Positions 42,415 through 52,308 of a stretch of DNA of 60,431 nucleotides are shown one piece after another. Every line of letters starts with the position of its first letter. Within the stretch, counting starts at the first letter, position 1. The notes below the pieces were generated by a model. The model was given only the letters and a program-made list of their open reading frames with translations. It was not told where the DNA came from and ran no database searches. The position numbers and the translations under genes are program-made. This DNA comes from Halodesulfovibrio sp. MK-HDV (GTDB lineage: Bacteria; Desulfobacterota; Desulfovibrionia; Desulfovibrionales; Desulfovibrionaceae), in assembly GCF_009914765.1 (NCBI RefSeq), contig NZ_WYDS01000024.1:1-60431 (forward strand), given 5' to 3'.

Positions 42415-42579
42415 ATGGAAGATACTAAGAAAAAAAGCCTTTGGGCTCGCTTAACCGGCACGGGCTCTGATTGCGGATGTTGTTGCGGAACAATCATTGA
42501 GGAAACGCCTGAAGCTGAAAAAGAAAGAACTCAGCCGGATGAGGGCAAAAAAACTCAAGAAAAAACCGACACCAAGTAA
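42415..42579 (+). CDS. Small Cys-rich protein following the permease
   Basis: 54-aa protein with DCGCCCG near residue 20 and a Lys/Glu-rich tail. AGGGAG stands seven bases before the ATG and it follows the permease by 30 bases, so it is very likely co-expressed. Small proteins with a DCCC-type motif beside ArsP-like permeases are described as putative metal-binding proteins in this group of bacteria (recalled, not checked). It may bind the transported metalloid. Confidence 0.7.
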   Translation: MEDTKKKSLWARLTGTGSDCGCCCGTIIEETPEAEKERTQPDEGKKTQEKTDTK

Positions 42580-42655
42580 CACATACAGCTGCATCCCTCT
42601 GTACATCGACTAAATCTGCAACCCAACTCACACTCAACTTACAAAGAAACTACCC

Positions 42656-42995
42656 ATGGATGCTATTTTAGCTGAAATGGAATTTGAGGCGCTTGCCAAC
42701 GGCGAGTTCATAACCTCTGCAGAAGGGGTACGAAACATTATTGTTAATAAAAGTGTTCTACTCTTGGATGTCCATACTGGAACAGAAGCCCCACATTGCA
42801 GCTATCCGTTCGCGAAGAACATTCCTCTGGAAAAATCTTCCAGACCGCATATGTGAACTGCCTACAGACAAGATAATTATCACGCTGGCAGCCTCTTCAT
42901 TTCAAGATGCCGTTGGTTTCTTTTACCTGCGTCAAGCTGACTTTGAGGCAGTAAAAACCATGGTCGGTGGATCAGAGCAATTGCTACTATTTTAA
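42656..42995 (+). pseudogene. Degenerate rhodanese-like protein, frameshifted
   Basis: Two frames form a 112-residue rhodanese-like domain (SAEGVRNIIVNKSVLLLDVHTG, then LPDRICELPTDKIII and FFYLRQADFEAVKTMVGG). One A too many in AAAAA (42831-42835) breaks the frame. The loop that should carry the active-site Cys reads ITLAASSFQDAV, without Cys, so it is decayed or inactive even if the frame were joined. Confidence 0.6.
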
Positions 42996-43873: not shown

Positions 43874-43926
43874 TAGTTAACTAGTTACCCCTGTGTATAT
43901 GATGCTTGGCAAAAGGGGGACTAACA

Positions 43927-46782
43927 ATGCTCATTACTATAAAAGATTACGCTCAAGACTTTCTAAAATTACTTCTCTTATCCTGCATTCTGATTGTAGT
44001 GCCGACAAAAATGGCTAGCGCGGGACAACTTATACAATCCCTTGAAAAAGATTATGTTAATTATGATAACATTTACGCCCCAGCCAATATCTACGGTGAA
44101 AAGGCCGGCATTGGTGTCGTAAATCCATCTAAATATTCTATTACAAATTATGGAACAATTTCTTTCGTAGAAATCAATTCGGATTCAAGCCCTGAAGTAT
44201 ACGGAATTGTAGCTCACGAAATGATAAAAAACTATGGAGACATTACCGTTTCGTCCCTATCTGCGAGCACTGCTTCAACAAAGCCTACTGATGCGAGTGC
44301 AACAGCTCTAGGGATTTACTCATCTATTGGTGTGGAAAACCATGGGGATATTACGATACAAGCAAGAGGTGGAGAGTCAGTTAGTCTTAACACCATCTCG
44401 AGTAGCTCTGAAACGGAGGGGGTTGGACTTCAAACAAAGGGCGTTATCACGAACCATGGTGCGATCTCTGTATCTTCAATAAGTGGAAACTCATCTCTCA
44501 CCTATACTTCACCCGATATTATCGGCTATTCCAGAATACACAACAATGCTAAAGCCTATGGTATTATGTCTAAAAGCAATGTCACAAACTATGGTAATAT
44601 TTCATCACTAGCTGTTTCTGGGATTACCCATATAGTTGCCGACGATTTTTCATTAAATTACGACAAAGCCTACGCGTATGGTATAAAAACACTCGGCAAT
44701 GTAACTTCCTATGGATCAATTTTCTCAACGGCAAAAGGGGGAAGAGCTTCCACTAACGCAACGGTATTTACCGACGCCAATGCTCATGCTTATGCCTATG
44801 GAATTTACACCGATGGAACAGTTACTAACTATGGAAACATAACAGCTACCGCTCTGGGGGGAACCGCCTTTAACAATGTTAGTACAAGTAACACTGCCCG
44901 TTGTTATGGATCAGCTGAAGCTAAGGGTATCTATTCTGAAAAAGCCGTAACTAACTACGGTACAGTTATAGCTAAGGCTGTTGGTGGCAAAGCTACTTAT
45001 ACTACAAATAAATGGGGTTCCGCTGTTGCTGATGCTGATGCTGTAGGCATTTACTCTAAAGGCAATGTATCAAGTTATGGCGACATCATCGTCACAGCTC
45101 AAGGCGGAAACGCAATTGCTTCAGACTCGGTTATCATAATTGATAAATACAACACGGGAACGGATGCAGAAGGCTATGCCAAAGGGATCATAGCTTCCGG
45201 TGATGTGTTAAGTACGGGCAATATAACAGTAACCGCTACTGGTGGAGTGAAAAAGAGAGCCGGTGTGCTGACAAGCGATGTGTCAGAAGCAACGGGTATT
45301 CAAATGAATGCTACTGGTAGACTGGATTCACGAGGGATTATTAGTGCTTCAGCTTTTCCAGCATCAGGGTATGCTTTTGATCCAACAAAACATATTGCCA
45401 GACAAGTTTATATTGCAAAAGGGGTGACTACACTGACGGGCTACGGCATGAAGTTTTCCAATTCAAACAAAGCATTAACATCGGAGTTTGGAGGAAGCAT
45501 CCATGTAAATAACGACGCTTCGGCAGCTGCAGATCTCCTTTTTCAGCAAGCTGTACTCTACGCCCATCAGGGAGTTCATTTTGCAGTTGGAGTCTATGAA
45601 ATCCCAATGATTGAAAAAGGAGCAACACATTCAGACGCGACAGACGACCAGTTCGTCGATGTTGTTGCATCCCACCCAGACATAAAAGCAGCTCTCACGG
45701 CAGGAAACAGTGGTAGACTGCAACAAGTTACTTTTACTTATGCTCCCAAAAGTTCGCCCTCCCTTCTTTCTACCCGCGCTGCTGCTGATGCACAGATGAA
45801 ATCGCAATATACAATTGCAAACGAACTTTCAAACATGTTGTTCGCATCTGCACGCCCCTCTTCTGTGCAAGAAAAACAGGTTGCTGGCATTAATGACAAC
45901 ACAAGCCACATGGTAGCGTCCTCAGATGCTACAGTTATTCCTACTATAGAATCTAGTTCTGACAACACACACACTCTCTTCCTCCGCCCAATCGTTGCAA
46001 CTTCTGAAGATACGTCTACATATGGTTATGATTCTAGAACTGCAGGCTTTGTACTCGGGTACACACATAAATTTAGCGATGCTTTTTATCTTGGTGGACA
46101 TGCAGGCTATACCCGCAGCAATGTGGATTATACTGACGTTGGCACTGGATATTCAGACCGTGAAGAGGACATTGATACTTATTACGGTGGGATTCATGCA
46201 ATTGGTCGGTACGACAAAAATTGGATTTTCACCGGAATGTCTTCCTTCTTCATCGGTGACAATACGTATTCCAACAATGACCCAGCATTAAAAGAAAATG
46301 CAACGTATTCATCCTATGCATTGCGCACCAAACTTACTGGCGGATACCTGTTTGCAATTGGGGAAAATCAGTTTTTGCCTGAACTTGGCCTTACTCACAC
46401 TTGGCAACACCACGATGAATACTCCACCAAAAACACCACCACGTTCTCGACTACATACGGATCACTGGATGACAACGAACTGTACGGCACTGCTTCCATC
46501 AAATGGCTTCGCAAGTTTAAAGTAGGTAACAACTGGTTATTTACCCCACAGCTTGGCATTGGTATTACGCAAGTGCTTACGGATGGTGAAATATCTGTAA
46601 CTCAACGCGCCGCTGCAGCGGCACAACTTATGGTTGATTCAGAAGATAAAACGACCATTACTCCAGAACTAAGCTTAACCATGCAACAAGACGATTTTTC
46701 TCTCACTCTCGGCTACAACGGAGGCTTCTCAGACACCACCCGTAATAACCAGTTCTGGGTGCAAGGAAGCGTAGATTTTTAA
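43927..46782 (+). CDS. Autotransporter outer-membrane beta-barrel protein (type Va secretion)
   Basis: 951-aa surface protein. Signal peptide to about residue 37 (MASA-GQ). The passenger (about 40-560) has around eleven imperfect repeats of a TNYGNI-type motif (for example SNVTNYGNISS, GTVTNYGNITA, KAVTNYGTVIA, GNVSSYGDIIV), the pattern of a right-handed beta-helix. The C-terminal 280 residues are an autotransporter barrel beginning TAGFVLGYTHKFSDAFYLGGH and ending in Phe (GSVDF). No catalytic motif is seen in the passenger, so adhesion is the likely role. ATG 43927 is preceded by AGGGGGA. A terminator follows immediately. Confidence 0.9.
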   Translation: MLITIKDYAQDFLKLLLLSCILIVVPTKMASAGQLIQSLEKDYVNYDNIYAPANIYGEKAGIGVVNPSKYSITNYGTISFVEINSDSSPEVYGIVAHEMIKNYGDITVSSLSASTASTKPTDASATALGIYSSIGVENHGDITIQARGGESVSLNTISSSSETEGVGLQTKGVITNHGAISVSSISGNSSLTYTSPDIIGYSRIHNNAKAYGIMSKSNVTNYGNISSLAVSGITHIVADDFSLNYDKAYAYGIKTLGNVTSYGSIFSTAKGGRASTNATVFTDANAHAYAYGIYTDGTVTNYGNITATALGGTAFNNVSTSNTARCYGSAEAKGIYSEKAVTNYGTVIAKAVGGKATYTTNKWGSAVADADAVGIYSKGNVSSYGDIIVTAQGGNAIASDSVIIIDKYNTGTDAEGYAKGIIASGDVLSTGNITVTATGGVKKRAGVLTSDVSEATGIQMNATGRLDSRGIISASAFPASGYAFDPTKHIARQVYIAKGVTTLTGYGMKFSNSNKALTSEFGGSIHVNNDASAAADLLFQQAVLYAHQGVHFAVGVYEIPMIEKGATHSDATDDQFVDVVASHPDIKAALTAGNSGRLQQVTFTYAPKSSPSLLSTRAAADAQMKSQYTIANELSNMLFASARPSSVQEKQVAGINDNTSHMVASSDATVIPTIESSSDNTHTLFLRPIVATSEDTSTYGYDSRTAGFVLGYTHKFSDAFYLGGHAGYTRSNVDYTDVGTGYSDREEDIDTYYGGIHAIGRYDKNWIFTGMSSFFIGDNTYSNNDPALKENATYSSYALRTKLTGGYLFAIGENQFLPELGLTHTWQHHDEYSTKNTTTFSTTYGSLDDNELYGTASIKWLRKFKVGNNWLFTPQLGIGITQVLTDGEISVTQRAAAAAQLMVDSEDKTTITPELSLTMQQDDFSLTLGYNGGFSDTTRNNQFWVQGSVDF

Positions 46783-48693: not shown

Positions 48694-49303
48694 CGCTTCG
48701 TTACATACTAGCTCCCCCCACCTCTCCAGCACCTTTGGGCACATCAAAAATATTATCCAGATATTCAGTAGCCTGAGAGCGTGGGTCTGAATGATAAATG
48801 CTAATGATAAAATTAGGCATAGACTTTCAGGAAATATCGGAATCAAACCCGCTCTCCCGCCTACCTAGGGCTACCATTGAAAAAAAGTGCACACACGACA
48901 TGCCACCTTTAGGAGGCGTGCATAGCCACCAAAAGGACGAAAATTTAGCGTGTATAAAAATTATTTTTTTGCAACATATCCTGAAAGATCCTTAACTGTA
49001 TCGCATTGTGAATTCAAATAATTTGAAGACACTACCTAAATAAAAAAGATAGACTTTGACCTTCTAGACCGCTGATCGAGATTTAGATTTTTTCTGCGGC
49101 ATGCCTGAAAACATAGGTATACAGACTTTCTATCTGAATACCTTTTTCTTTTTTCAACCATACTTCCATTTAATACAATATATTTGTGTTCAGTATTACC
49201 TCAGACTTGATCTCACCCCCGTAGTCCATGTTACAGTTTCAGTGACTTCAACTGTAACATCATGGCTCGTGTCTATTGAGACGGAGTAATGCGTGAGGTA
49301 AAT
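48694..49303. other. Intergenic region before APC-like transporter
   Basis: About 600 bases. The open frames at 48798-48995 and 49101-49289 look like chance ORFs, with biased Phe/Leu or Lys content and no family features. The only structure is the long inverted repeat at 49228-49260. Confidence 0.5.
49228..49260. promoter_or_regulatory. Long inverted repeat upstream of transporter-rhodanese operon
   Basis: ATGTTACAGTT and AACTGTAACAT are perfect inverted 11-mers with an 11-base spacer, 44-76 bases before the transporter start. There is no T run, so an operator is more likely than a terminator. Confidence 0.5.
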
Positions 49304-50500
49304 ATGTTAACAGCGGCCTTGCTCGCAATGGGTTTTCTGCTTTCCCCCAGAGCTTTTATGATCACAGGAAGCGGTATCGGCCTGGCTGGGAACTGGTATT
49401 TTGTAGTCGCCGCAGTTCTTCTAGCAACTCAAATAGTCACTATCTCCCCACGAACTTCAAACCGTGAAGGCACCTACACCAATGCACTAGAATCATTTGG
49501 CTATGGTGTCCGCTTTTTTTCACTAGTGTTCTTTTCATGCTCGATATTGGGGATTGCCGGCTATGCTTTCAACGAAGTATTCCTATACTGGTTTCCCAAC
49601 TTCCTTTTCAGTTTCATCATACTAACATGCTCATTTCTCACCTGCCTGGCACCTTCCTGCTACGCTAGAAAGATACAACTCATCGTAATCATAACGATAC
49701 TTGTCGGTATCATTTTTCTCTCTGTTGCCTCACTATGGGCTCCATCTCCAAAGGAAGCGAATTCACCTGACTTCTTTTTGCCGTATGGACTATCTCCTTT
49801 CTCCGAAGGACTCTTTTTCATGGCCCCCCTTCTGATTGGTTATGAACTCTATGCTTCATCTTCCACCAAGAACAAAGTTTCCGGTTCTTCATACGCTCTG
49901 GCTCTGGGCATGGCAGCACTGTTCCTGTCCATTTTTGCCTACGCCGCATTGAGCGTATCCGGTACGGAAAAATTGGCTGATTCGACTGTCCCTTATATGA
50001 TCGGCGCCAGAAAGATACTGGGTCAAACCGGACGGTATATAATGGGAGGCATCATCATTTTGGGCAGTTATGTTGCTTTCAATACAATTCTCTTATTTCT
50101 CAAAACCCCATTCATCACGCTTATGGATTCCCACTTTTTAACTCGACTTCCTAGTCGCAATCTGGGCAAGCAAGTTGTTGCGACAACCATTCCAACTCTG
50201 ACGGTTTCCATTCTGCTCCTCCGTGGTTATGCCGGCGAACCAATTACCGAGTCATATATCGCTGGAGGCTTCGCCCTTTGGTTTGTGTTCTATGGATTGT
50301 CCACAGCAGTTTCCGTAACAGACACGGATTCACTTCTTTCCAAGTTGTTAAAAATATGTGGTATTTTTTCATGCTCATACCTCGCGTATGCAGTATTACA
50401 GATGCCTGAAGCCCCTCTCAAAGGACTCATCACGGCAGGTGTCGTCTCAATTTTCATCACTGCAGTGGGCATAATAGGCAGGAAAAAGTTGTTGCCCTAA
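49304..50500 (+). CDS. APC-superfamily-like membrane transporter
   Basis: 398-aa inner-membrane protein with about 11 hydrophobic spans. The opening segment (FLLSPRAFMITGSGIGLAG) resembles the broken first helix of amino-acid/polyamine/organocation transporters. I cannot assign a substrate. ATG 49304 is preferred because GAGG lies five bases before it; ATG 49289 is an alternative. It precedes the exported rhodanese by 45 bases and is probably co-transcribed with it, hinting at a sulfur or selenium compound as substrate. Confidence 0.68.
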   Translation: MLTAALLAMGFLLSPRAFMITGSGIGLAGNWYFVVAAVLLATQIVTISPRTSNREGTYTNALESFGYGVRFFSLVFFSCSILGIAGYAFNEVFLYWFPNFLFSFIILTCSFLTCLAPSCYARKIQLIVIITILVGIIFLSVASLWAPSPKEANSPDFFLPYGLSPFSEGLFFMAPLLIGYELYASSSTKNKVSGSSYALALGMAALFLSIFAYAALSVSGTEKLADSTVPYMIGARKILGQTGRYIMGGIIILGSYVAFNTILLFLKTPFITLMDSHFLTRLPSRNLGKQVVATTIPTLTVSILLLRGYAGEPITESYIAGGFALWFVFYGLSTAVSVTDTDSLLSKLLKICGIFSCSYLAYAVLQMPEAPLKGLITAGVVSIFITAVGIIGRKKLLP

Positions 50501-50545
50501 AAATATATGGTACAATGCAAAACAAATATTCATAGAGAGGTTACC

Positions 50546-50938
50546 ATGAAACCAATTAGACTAGCCGCCTTGGTCATAATAATCTTGGCATTTGTAGCTA
50601 CAGCATTTGCCGACGACGTTCGGTCTATAGACAAAGAAGCTCTGAAAGCAGATATGGGTTCCTACACCATTGTCGATGTCCGCACCGGCTCGGACTGGAA
50701 AGGAAGTGAATTCAAAATACTGGGAGCTGTTCGTCTCAAAGGAGATATTGTTGATTTCGCCAAAAGCAAAGGCTGGGCAAAAGATGCGAAAATTGTTCTT
50801 TACTGTGCCTGACCGAATGAAGCTACAAGCGTCCGGGAGGCGCAAAAATTGATCGATGCAGGCTACACAAATGTTTTCGCTCTGGATGGCGGCTGGAAGG
50901 ATTGGTATAGAAACAAATATCCTGTCGAAGAAAAATAG
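50546..50938 (+). CDS. Exported rhodanese-like protein with in-frame TGA (probable selenoprotein)
   Basis: 130-aa periplasmic rhodanese. Signal peptide to AFA-DD (about residue 22), then YTIVDVRTGSDWKGSEF (CDC25-like rhodanese motif), and the active-site loop VLYCA-TGA-PNEATS. Reading continues in the same frame through SVREAQKLIDAGYTNVFALDGGWKDWY to TAG at 50938, all well-conserved rhodanese sequence. TGA is codon 89, two residues after the loop Cys, where relatives have a second Cys (CxC). That is the signature of selenocysteine. A stem at 50829-50843 (GCGTC/GGCGC, G-containing loop) lies at a bacterial SECIS-like distance. GAGAGG precedes the ATG. Alternative: a nonsense mutation. Confidence 0.72.
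50829..50843 (+). promoter_or_regulatory. Candidate bacterial SECIS stem-loop
   Basis: GCGTC pairs with GGCGC (one G-U) around loop CGGGA. The loop begins 22 bases after the TGA and has G in its second position, which fits the general description of bacterial SECIS elements. The stem is short, so this is tentative. Confidence 0.4.
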
Positions 50939-51135
50939 GGCAAAGTCGAAGGTAAAATAAGTCCGTACATTTGATGACACTATCTAATCAACATAACTCA
51001 AGCACTAAATATTTTCTGTACAGACAGACTTTACTTTCCCTAAGTCAAAGCAGCATATGGACTACATAGAATTTGTTGGAACCATTTTCTCATGCCTATC
51101 TAGGTGGCAGATGTTGGTTCGTAGAAAACTTTTTT

Positions 51136-51165
51136 AACCGTCTGTTTCAAAAGAAACAGACGGTT
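51136..51165. repeat. Perfect 13-bp inverted repeat
   Basis: AACCGTCTGTTTC and GAAACAGACGGTT around AAAA. There is a T run before it, not after it, on the plus strand, so it is not a standard terminator. Function unknown; could be the end of the rhodanese message or a mobile-element relic. Confidence 0.5.
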
Positions 51166-51403
51166 AATATTTAGCTAGCTGAATGCTGATGGATACTACA
51201 CTTGCTATATGATTGGTGAGCTGCTAGCTGACTTGCGGCTTTTCGTCATTCTTATTGCCCTCACTTACCCATCAGCAATGAAATGCGGATAATTATATAA
51301 ACATTGCGGTGTGGTAAGAAGAAAGATGAAGAGAAAGGCAAAGCAAATTCAGCTCAAAATGGAAATTTTAAAACTCACATCCGTGATGGGATAAAACAAA
51401 AAA

Positions 51404-51429
51404 AGCTCTTACACTTTCGTGTAAGAGCT
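51404..51429 (-). terminator. Hairpin downstream of tRNA-Glu fragment
   Basis: AGCTCTTACAC/GTGTAAGAGCT around a 4-base loop; on the minus strand it is followed by seven T. This is the original tRNA terminator, preserved with the tRNA fragment. Confidence 0.75.
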
Positions 51430-51438
51430 TAAATTGCT

Positions 51439-51498
51439 TGGCGTCCCCAAGGGAATTTGACTCCCTGTCGCCTGCGTGAAAGGCCGGTTCATACCTAG
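51439..51498 (-). pseudogene. tRNA-Glu 3' fragment (pseudo-tRNA)
   Basis: On the minus strand: CTAGG, then an anticodon arm CCGGC-CTTTCAC-GCAGG (anticodon TTC, one stem mismatch), a T arm AGGGA-GTCAAAT-TCCCT, and the 3' end TTGGGGACGCCA. This is tRNA-Glu(UUC) without its 5' acceptor and D-arm half. The T-loop begins G instead of T. Such a 3' fragment with encoded CCA is what integration at a tRNA gene leaves behind. Confidence 0.75.
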
Positions 51499-51732
51499 CA
51501 GAAACTGCTTATTCCCCAATTTACAAGGCTCCTACAGAAACACAGATACCATTAGCGACATTAAAAACATAAGGTGCTTACACCTCACTTGCGGCAGTAG
51601 GTAAGATTTAACCTAACTTAATTTTGCAGATTAATCCTGTTTTGCATCTACATTCCTCATGTATACTCAAAAAACAACTGTGGTTAAAGTAGCGCTAGCC
51701 TTGCCGTTGAAATAGCACTATTCCGGCATAAC

Positions 51733-52308
51733 TTATTGCAACAAAGCGTCAACCTGACTGTCTAATTCTTCGAATGCTTTGTTCGCTTTAAAGTCATCAT
51801 ACAAATTTTTCTTAATCGCTTCAGTTTTTACGTCTTTCTTAACTTCTTTTTTGTAAGACGCTGCCGGATAGAATGCTAGTGAATGAACTGTTCCATCCGG
51901 ACAGAACTGGCGTTTTGTAACACGTGCACCACGAAGAACTTGAGAAGAAACAGATTTACTTACACTTTGTACATATTCAAGCACAGAAGCATCATCGCCA
52001 AACCCGCTCTGTTGCATAAAATCCTTCAGCATAGAATCTGTTTTACTTTCTACCTGACGACCAATCTCACGCATGGCTCGAGAATCAGCTGTTTCACGAC
52101 TAAGTGCAGCAAGTTTAAGTTGAGCCTGACCACTGGCATAAAAACCATCAGAAGCACTTGGCGGATTAGTTTCCCATTCTGGAATACACATATCTGCAGG
52201 TGCAGCAGCAACTGGTGCCGGAGGAGCAGTTTCTACCTTATACTGTTTTGCACAACCGACAGAGAATACCATTACCATAGCCATCATCAATAACAGAAAC
52301 TTTTTCAT
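51733..52308 (-). CDS. LPP20-family lipoprotein
   Basis: 191-aa outer-membrane-type lipoprotein. Lipobox FSVGC at residue 19. After a Pro/Ala linker it has IPEWETNPPSASDGFYASGQAQ and the LPP20 core with ALSRETADSRAMREIGRQVES, the SxxxAxxxAxxEIA-type pattern of LPP20/FlgP proteins. It is the last gene of the exported-protein run. Function unknown; FlgP of vibrios, the best-known relative, forms part of an outer-membrane ring at the flagellum. Confidence 0.8.
   Translation of the reverse strand: MKKFLLLMMAMVMVFSVGCAKQYKVETAPPAPVAAAPADMCIPEWETNPPSASDGFYASGQAQLKLAALSRETADSRAMREIGRQVESKTDSMLKDFMQQSGFGDDASVLEYVQSVSKSVSSQVLRGARVTKRQFCPDGTVHSLAFYPAASYKKEVKKDVKTEAIKKNLYDDFKANKAFEELDSQVDALLQ

Follow-up and report, generated by a model that had tools for sequence, protein, structure and literature searches.

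A gene in the 60,431-nt stretch of Halodesulfovibrio sp. MK-HDV DNA analysed here (the window) very probably encodes a single-domain rhodanese of the C-x-U family NF041203, which is probably exported. On the comparative sequence evidence below, the UGA at its codon 89 would be decoded as selenocysteine (Sec) by SelB and tRNA-Sec, directed by a hairpin located 17–31 nt downstream. The features concerned are the following.

49289–50500, forward strand: gene for an APC-permease-like membrane protein of 403 aa, ending 45 nt upstream of the rhodanese gene
50534–50540, forward strand: AGAGAGG, resembling a ribosome-binding site, ahead of the ATG at 50546; found by eye and alike in L017
50546–50938, forward strand: predicted gene for a rhodanese selenoprotein of 130 aa (U89 included), ending in TAG; assigned by its NF041203 and PF00581 scores
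50546–50611, forward strand: signal-peptide-like N-terminus MKPIRLAALVIIILAFVATAFA, then DD; recognized by eye, with a pLDDT of 62–66 in residues 1–20
50804–50806, forward strand: TGT, the codon of Cys87, an invariant column in a 36-row alignment in which U was written as C
50810–50812, forward strand: TGA, predicted to be read as selenocysteine (U89); TGA in 12 of 12 orthologues among the 39 nearest genomes
50829–50843, forward strand: candidate SECIS-type hairpin GCGUC-CGGGA-GGCGC, at +17 to +31 after the TGA, assigned on a comparative basis

The reading frame opens with the ATG at 50546, contains a single in-frame TGA at 50810–50812 and closes with the TAG at 50936–50938, whereas the table-11 ORF listing cuts the gene at the TGA. 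A first-pass annotation of the window had described an exported rhodanese with the active-site loop Tyr-Cys-Ala-TGA-Pro-Asn-Glu, and the frame indeed reads Y-C-A-TGA-P-N-E (with Sec, LYCAU-PNEATS, where LYCAU represents residues 85–89). It had also counted 42 in-frame codons up to the TAG; the frame does stay open, but over 41 sense codons, the figure of 42 including the TAG itself. Another 88 codons lie 5' of the TGA. Because the PF00581 match (49.4 bits against a cut-off of 22.2) extends over residues 32–122 and thus across the TGA, both sides of this codon belong to one rhodanese domain. Read with Sec, the product would consist of a 22-residue signal-peptide-like start, as judged by eye, and 108 residues holding the rhodanese domain. 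An AlphaFold model, in which Sec was given as Cys, exhibits a rhodanese fold with a pLDDT of 90.6, and its Foldseek matches are rhodaneses. Escherichia coli GlpE (1gmx) and the Wolinella polysulfide-sulfur transferase (1qxn) share this common fold, at 24% and 16% identity to the model respectively, but neither is labelled a selenoprotein in the Foldseek listing. Cys87 corresponds in position to the catalytic Cys known from rhodaneses. Among the 14 rhodanese matches in the genome, only the one at 50546–50938 contains an in-frame stop. The observation of an interrupted rhodanese frame is correct and is not a product of chance.

The proposal that this is a new selenoprotein, in contrast, is not supported. 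The protein scores 143.9 bits against NF041203 (cut-off 115), the very name of which, rhodanese_LYCAU, holds the motif. Entries in PMC13188914 include a 'Rhodanese-like domain-containing protein form 3' (NF041203, CxU, one Sec), entries in PMC9312934 include 'COG0607 form 2, CxU', and TKB26178.1 is given for the CxU rhodanese in both. Given this score and the presence of a CxU rhodanese in two reviews, the family counts as already described, and the window gene adds one more member, assigned to it by score and sharing its C-x-U motif. No departure from NF041203 was seen in the window protein, whereas some relatives, those with U-x-U, do depart. Portions of PMC1088965 and PMC2398784 describe other rhodanese-related selenoproteins of the sea, and according to a portion of PMC8318568, the selenoproteins of a deltaproteobacterium include a rhodanese-like domain; in PMC1794560, rhodanese was found in the reference list only. 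Among the matches listed for NF041203 or LYCAU in the literature, PMC13188914 alone is selenoprotein-themed by title. TsoB (NF045694, rhodanese/DsbD fusion-like, UxxxxU) is likewise a rhodanese-domain selenoprotein, but its Sec spacing differs and the window protein reaches 25.5 bits against the NF045694 cut-off of 805. Rhodaneses with the loop YCACPNEA, mostly from Betaproteobacteria such as Herminiimonas and Ralstonia, have the same loop but carry Cys at the place of Sec.

We examined the residue at position 89 in relatives at several distances. Within the nearest-genome set of 39 genomes, the window's genome counted, 12 contain an orthologue of the rhodanese gene, each with TGA at codon 89; 11 of these exceed the NF041203 cut-off and that of G004 is slightly below it, at 109.8 bits. 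The protein of Halodesulfovibrio spirochaetisodalis (L017) is 87% identical over its whole length. Of the ten genomes of the genus, two have selB but no orthologue, namely G003 (86% complete) and G005, which counts against the Sec reading. The first-pass annotation had supposed that decayed sequence behind an early stop in close relatives would speak against a selenoprotein; instead, the frame is open in all 12 orthologues and, as judged from the sequences, the part 3' of the TGA is under purifying selection. Specifically, pN/pS in five genomes of the genus (G000, G001, G002, G008 and G009, with all five genes 390 nt long) is 0.146 before the TGA, in the mature part, and 0.213 after it.

Family matches at E ≤ 1e-18 were found in 87 of 395 sampled genomes of the phylum, 61 above the cut-off. 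The phylum sample listed 128 places, and typing omitted the 17 weakest of them (E 1.2e-23 to 4.3e-19) as well as the truncated L248; these 17 show TGA in nine (one also with two TAA), no stop in seven and TAA in one. The nearest-genome set and the phylum sample together provided 121 typed genes, in which the loop pair is C/U in 94, U/U in 13, C/S in nine, C/C in two, C/A in two and S/S in one. Position 89 is thus U in 107 genes, located in 85 genomes, and U or C in 109; in the remaining 12 it is Ser or Ala, which counts against the Sec reading. A sequencing error giving a false TGA has a negligible probability and is refuted by the relatives, as the same TGA is present in 11 other near genomes and throughout these 107 genes.

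Cys also appears at exactly this codon. Desulfatitalea L019 (169–570), at 49% identity, carries TGT there, and 78 of 80 homologous loci encode Cys where the window gene has its TGA, the remaining two, both Halodesulfovibrio, having TGA. The Cys count is biased because YCACPNEA was among the search patterns that fetched these loci. Within this pattern-biased set, the first-pass view that Sec replaces the second Cys of a C-x-C motif is supported. Separately, several other rhodanese matches below the NF041203 cut-off contain an in-frame TGA: G031:C1:3036293-3036631, G018:C18:20700-20957, G036:C5:41569-41835 and 42544-42906, G016:C5:269179-269532 and G035:C109:1607-1951.

Bacterial SECIS elements are hairpins located just downstream of the UGA, with a G in the apical loop. 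A short stem with a G in its loop had been noted 17–31 bases 3' of the TGA, and it is located there. Of the 107 Sec genes, 103 form all five pairs within the 15 nt at +17 to +31 and the other four form four, whereas 500 synonymous recodings of the same peptides gave five pairs in 4.5 genes on average and in 12 at the maximum. When the 3' arm was shifted by one, two or three bases, five pairs were left in 0 or 1 of the 107. The second pair is U-A in 48 Sec genes and C-G in 55, as expected of compensatory changes. All 107 have G as the second base of the loop; this G is under protein constraint as well, being the central position of a codon for Arg, Ser, Gly or Trp. Among the 78 Cys homologues, only Desulfatitalea L019 retains a five-pair hairpin, and its sequence suggests the trace of a recent change from Sec to Cys. 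The 14 family genes without U at position 89 likewise include one with five pairs, L201 (368–742), a YCSSV form with Ser at the Sec place yet all five hairpin pairs. In L213 (2501–2863), the TGA is shifted by one codon (YCCSU), and four of the five pairs are present in the family's register. The window's own hairpin region folds no better than shuffled sequence (z = 0.54; 143 of 200 shuffles folded equally well or better), so the case for the hairpin is a comparative one. An Rfam search of 50400–51400 at E up to 5 returned six matches, each far under its gathering score.

These data bear directly on whether the TGA could be a genuine stop, leaving an 88-residue truncated protein or a pseudogene. 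TGA is a stop in table 11, as the ORF listing reflects, and the window's hairpin region taken alone is not thermodynamically striking; the intact and selectively constrained frame downstream in 12 of 12 nearest orthologues, the conserved and covarying hairpin and the homologues with Cys at exactly the TGA codon nevertheless make a genuine stop very improbable.

Decoding of the UGA as selenocysteine, the preferred reading, would also require the corresponding machinery. The first-pass annotation had asked after selA/B/C/D and regarded a genome without selB and tRNA-Sec as fatal to its proposal; the genome contains selA (630.3 bits), selB (385.6 bits), selD (344.4 bits) and tRNA-Sec, the selC product (84.6 bits). 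The selD gene has an in-frame TGA of its own, in the context AAGUAAKI, and selA is located on a different contig, being absent from the ORFs listed near selB. ARAGORN identified no tRNA at 50900–52000 of the window and none in L017. Across the phylum, 84 of the 87 genomes that carry the family have selB at E ≤ 1e-75, compared with 269 of the 308 that do not carry it (Fisher p = 0.011). The counts of 84 and 269 were taken by reading through lists of matches, and in some of the 87 genomes the family genes have no TGA. The three family genomes without selB above the cut-off, G047 and G117 (85% complete) and G211 (99% complete), count against the Sec reading. The gene in G211 (L230, G211:C79:2168-2533) is itself of the TGA form.

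It is less credible still that TGA is read as an ordinary sense codon throughout the organism. None of nine neighbouring window genes that were checked ends in TGA, which would fit such a code, but the same nine genes run for ~3,300 codons without TGA (their ORFs having been called under table 11, which ends at TGA), the in-frame stop is confined to one of the genome's 14 rhodanese matches, the Sec machinery is complete, and the hairpin would lack an explanation.

The local genomic context includes a further gene, the APC-permease-like gene, which is the probable operon partner of the rhodanese. A homologue adjoins the rhodanese gene in 9 of 11 relatives (10 of 12 with the window), G024 and G011 being those without, and the link to a membrane transporter claimed in the first-pass annotation is in this sense retained. 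A profile built from nine permease-like proteins was run on 86 upstream ORFs, of the 121 family genes, and matched the upstream ORF of 18; eight of these matches are members of the profile, and the ten outside it comprise that of L114 and those of nine genes belonging to other families within the phylum. Of nine distant permease orthologues found, five were scanned, and AA_permease_2 was above its cut-off in two. The window's own permease-like protein has no Pfam match, and querying PDB sequences with the permease profile gave no match. Foldseek matches of the permease model are APC transporters, although this is weak evidence because the model is poor (pLDDT 59.1). Elsewhere in the window, a perfect inverted repeat, AACCGTCTGTTTC / GAAACAGACGGTT, was seen by eye at 51136–51165, 3' of the rhodanese gene, and 43906–46782 encodes a protein with an autotransporter beta-domain (PF03797).

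Both loop positions are encoded by TGA in 13 of the 121 typed genes, from 12 genomes (L112, L156, L162, L166, L177, L186, L195, L196, L198, L200, L207, L228 and L235). In these U-x-U genes, the two TGAs are six nt apart and the family hairpin begins 16 nt after the second. On a quick tree of few columns, from which rows with an internal TAA were left out, U-x-U takes 10 changes versus a shuffled mean of 12.6, with 6 of 500 shuffles as low, and the starred branches force four. The string 'UxU' is absent from the text of PMC13188914, and no paper with both 'rhodanese' and 'UxU' was found among the matches listed, most subscription papers being outside the literature covered.

A C-terminal part of ~400 residues is fused to the rhodanese domain in L112, L190, L198, L200 and L228, four of which are U-x-U genes. 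Multihaem cytochrome families are above their Pfam cut-offs in the fused part of the three that were scanned (L112, L190 and L228). With NCBIfam, all five fusions are above the NF041203 cut-off, and the cytochrome-type matches (hydrazine dehydrogenase, DmsE-type and others) are all below theirs. Octahaem tetrathionate reductase (TIGR04315), a family listed with one Sec in an entry of PMC13188914, was considered for the fused part and dropped, as no TIGR04315 match at E ≤ 1e-5 was obtained. In L240 and L253, a C-x-U rhodanese domain is fused behind a VTT (DedA-type) membrane domain; extensions similar in length are present in L241, L252 and L254, and no second Pfam domain was found in L170, L180, L181 or L256, which have long N-terminal extensions. 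The gene upstream of L220 encodes a multihaem-cytochrome-like protein, which blastp relates to the ORFs lying upstream of L229 and L230.

The role that we favour, because of the permease neighbour and the cytochrome and VTT fusions, is a periplasmic redox or sulfur relay by Cys87 and Sec89, and we hold it with even confidence. In such a relay, these two residues of the active-site loop would act as a single redox pair, of which one would take up sulfane sulfur or be oxidized and the other would resolve it as a selenenylsulfide. A partner would then re-reduce the Cys87–Sec89 pair, and a cytochrome or membrane partner could give or take the electrons. The upstream APC-permease-like protein may be connected with this partner in the window's lineage; elsewhere, a multihaem-cytochrome-like part or a VTT membrane domain, joined to the same rhodanese domain, could serve.

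One alternative concerns the role only. Sec would be present, but Cys87 alone would be catalytic, as in a plain sulfurtransferase, with Sec89 tuning the loop or binding a metal. Rhodanese catalysis needs a single Cys, at the position of Cys87; within the family, Cys87 is kept alongside Ser (nine genes) or Ala (two genes) at position 89, of the 121 typed. This alternative is nonetheless unlikely, though far less so than those concerning the TGA itself: position 89 is U or C in all but 12 of the typed genes, the multihaem-cytochrome-like fusions suggest electron transfer, and the U-x-U forms suggest a paired function. Returning to the relay, we tentatively extend it to the family as a whole, at somewhat lower confidence: the C/U-x-U domain may be a modular periplasmic chalcogen redox relay, combined with an APC permease, a multihaem cytochrome or a VTT domain, and both UGAs of the U-x-U genes may be decoded via the same hairpin to give a diselenide rhodanese.

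Together, these comparisons support a selenoprotein gene that the table-11 ORF listing cuts at its TGA. Sec is the commonest state among the family genes typed from the phylum (107 of 121) and not an oddity of one genome. The remaining interest is in the 13 U-x-U genes and the domain fusions. If their reading is true, the U-x-U members would raise the testable question of one hairpin serving two UGAs six nt apart and, with the fusions, would make the role of a paired chalcogen centre in a rhodanese testable as well.
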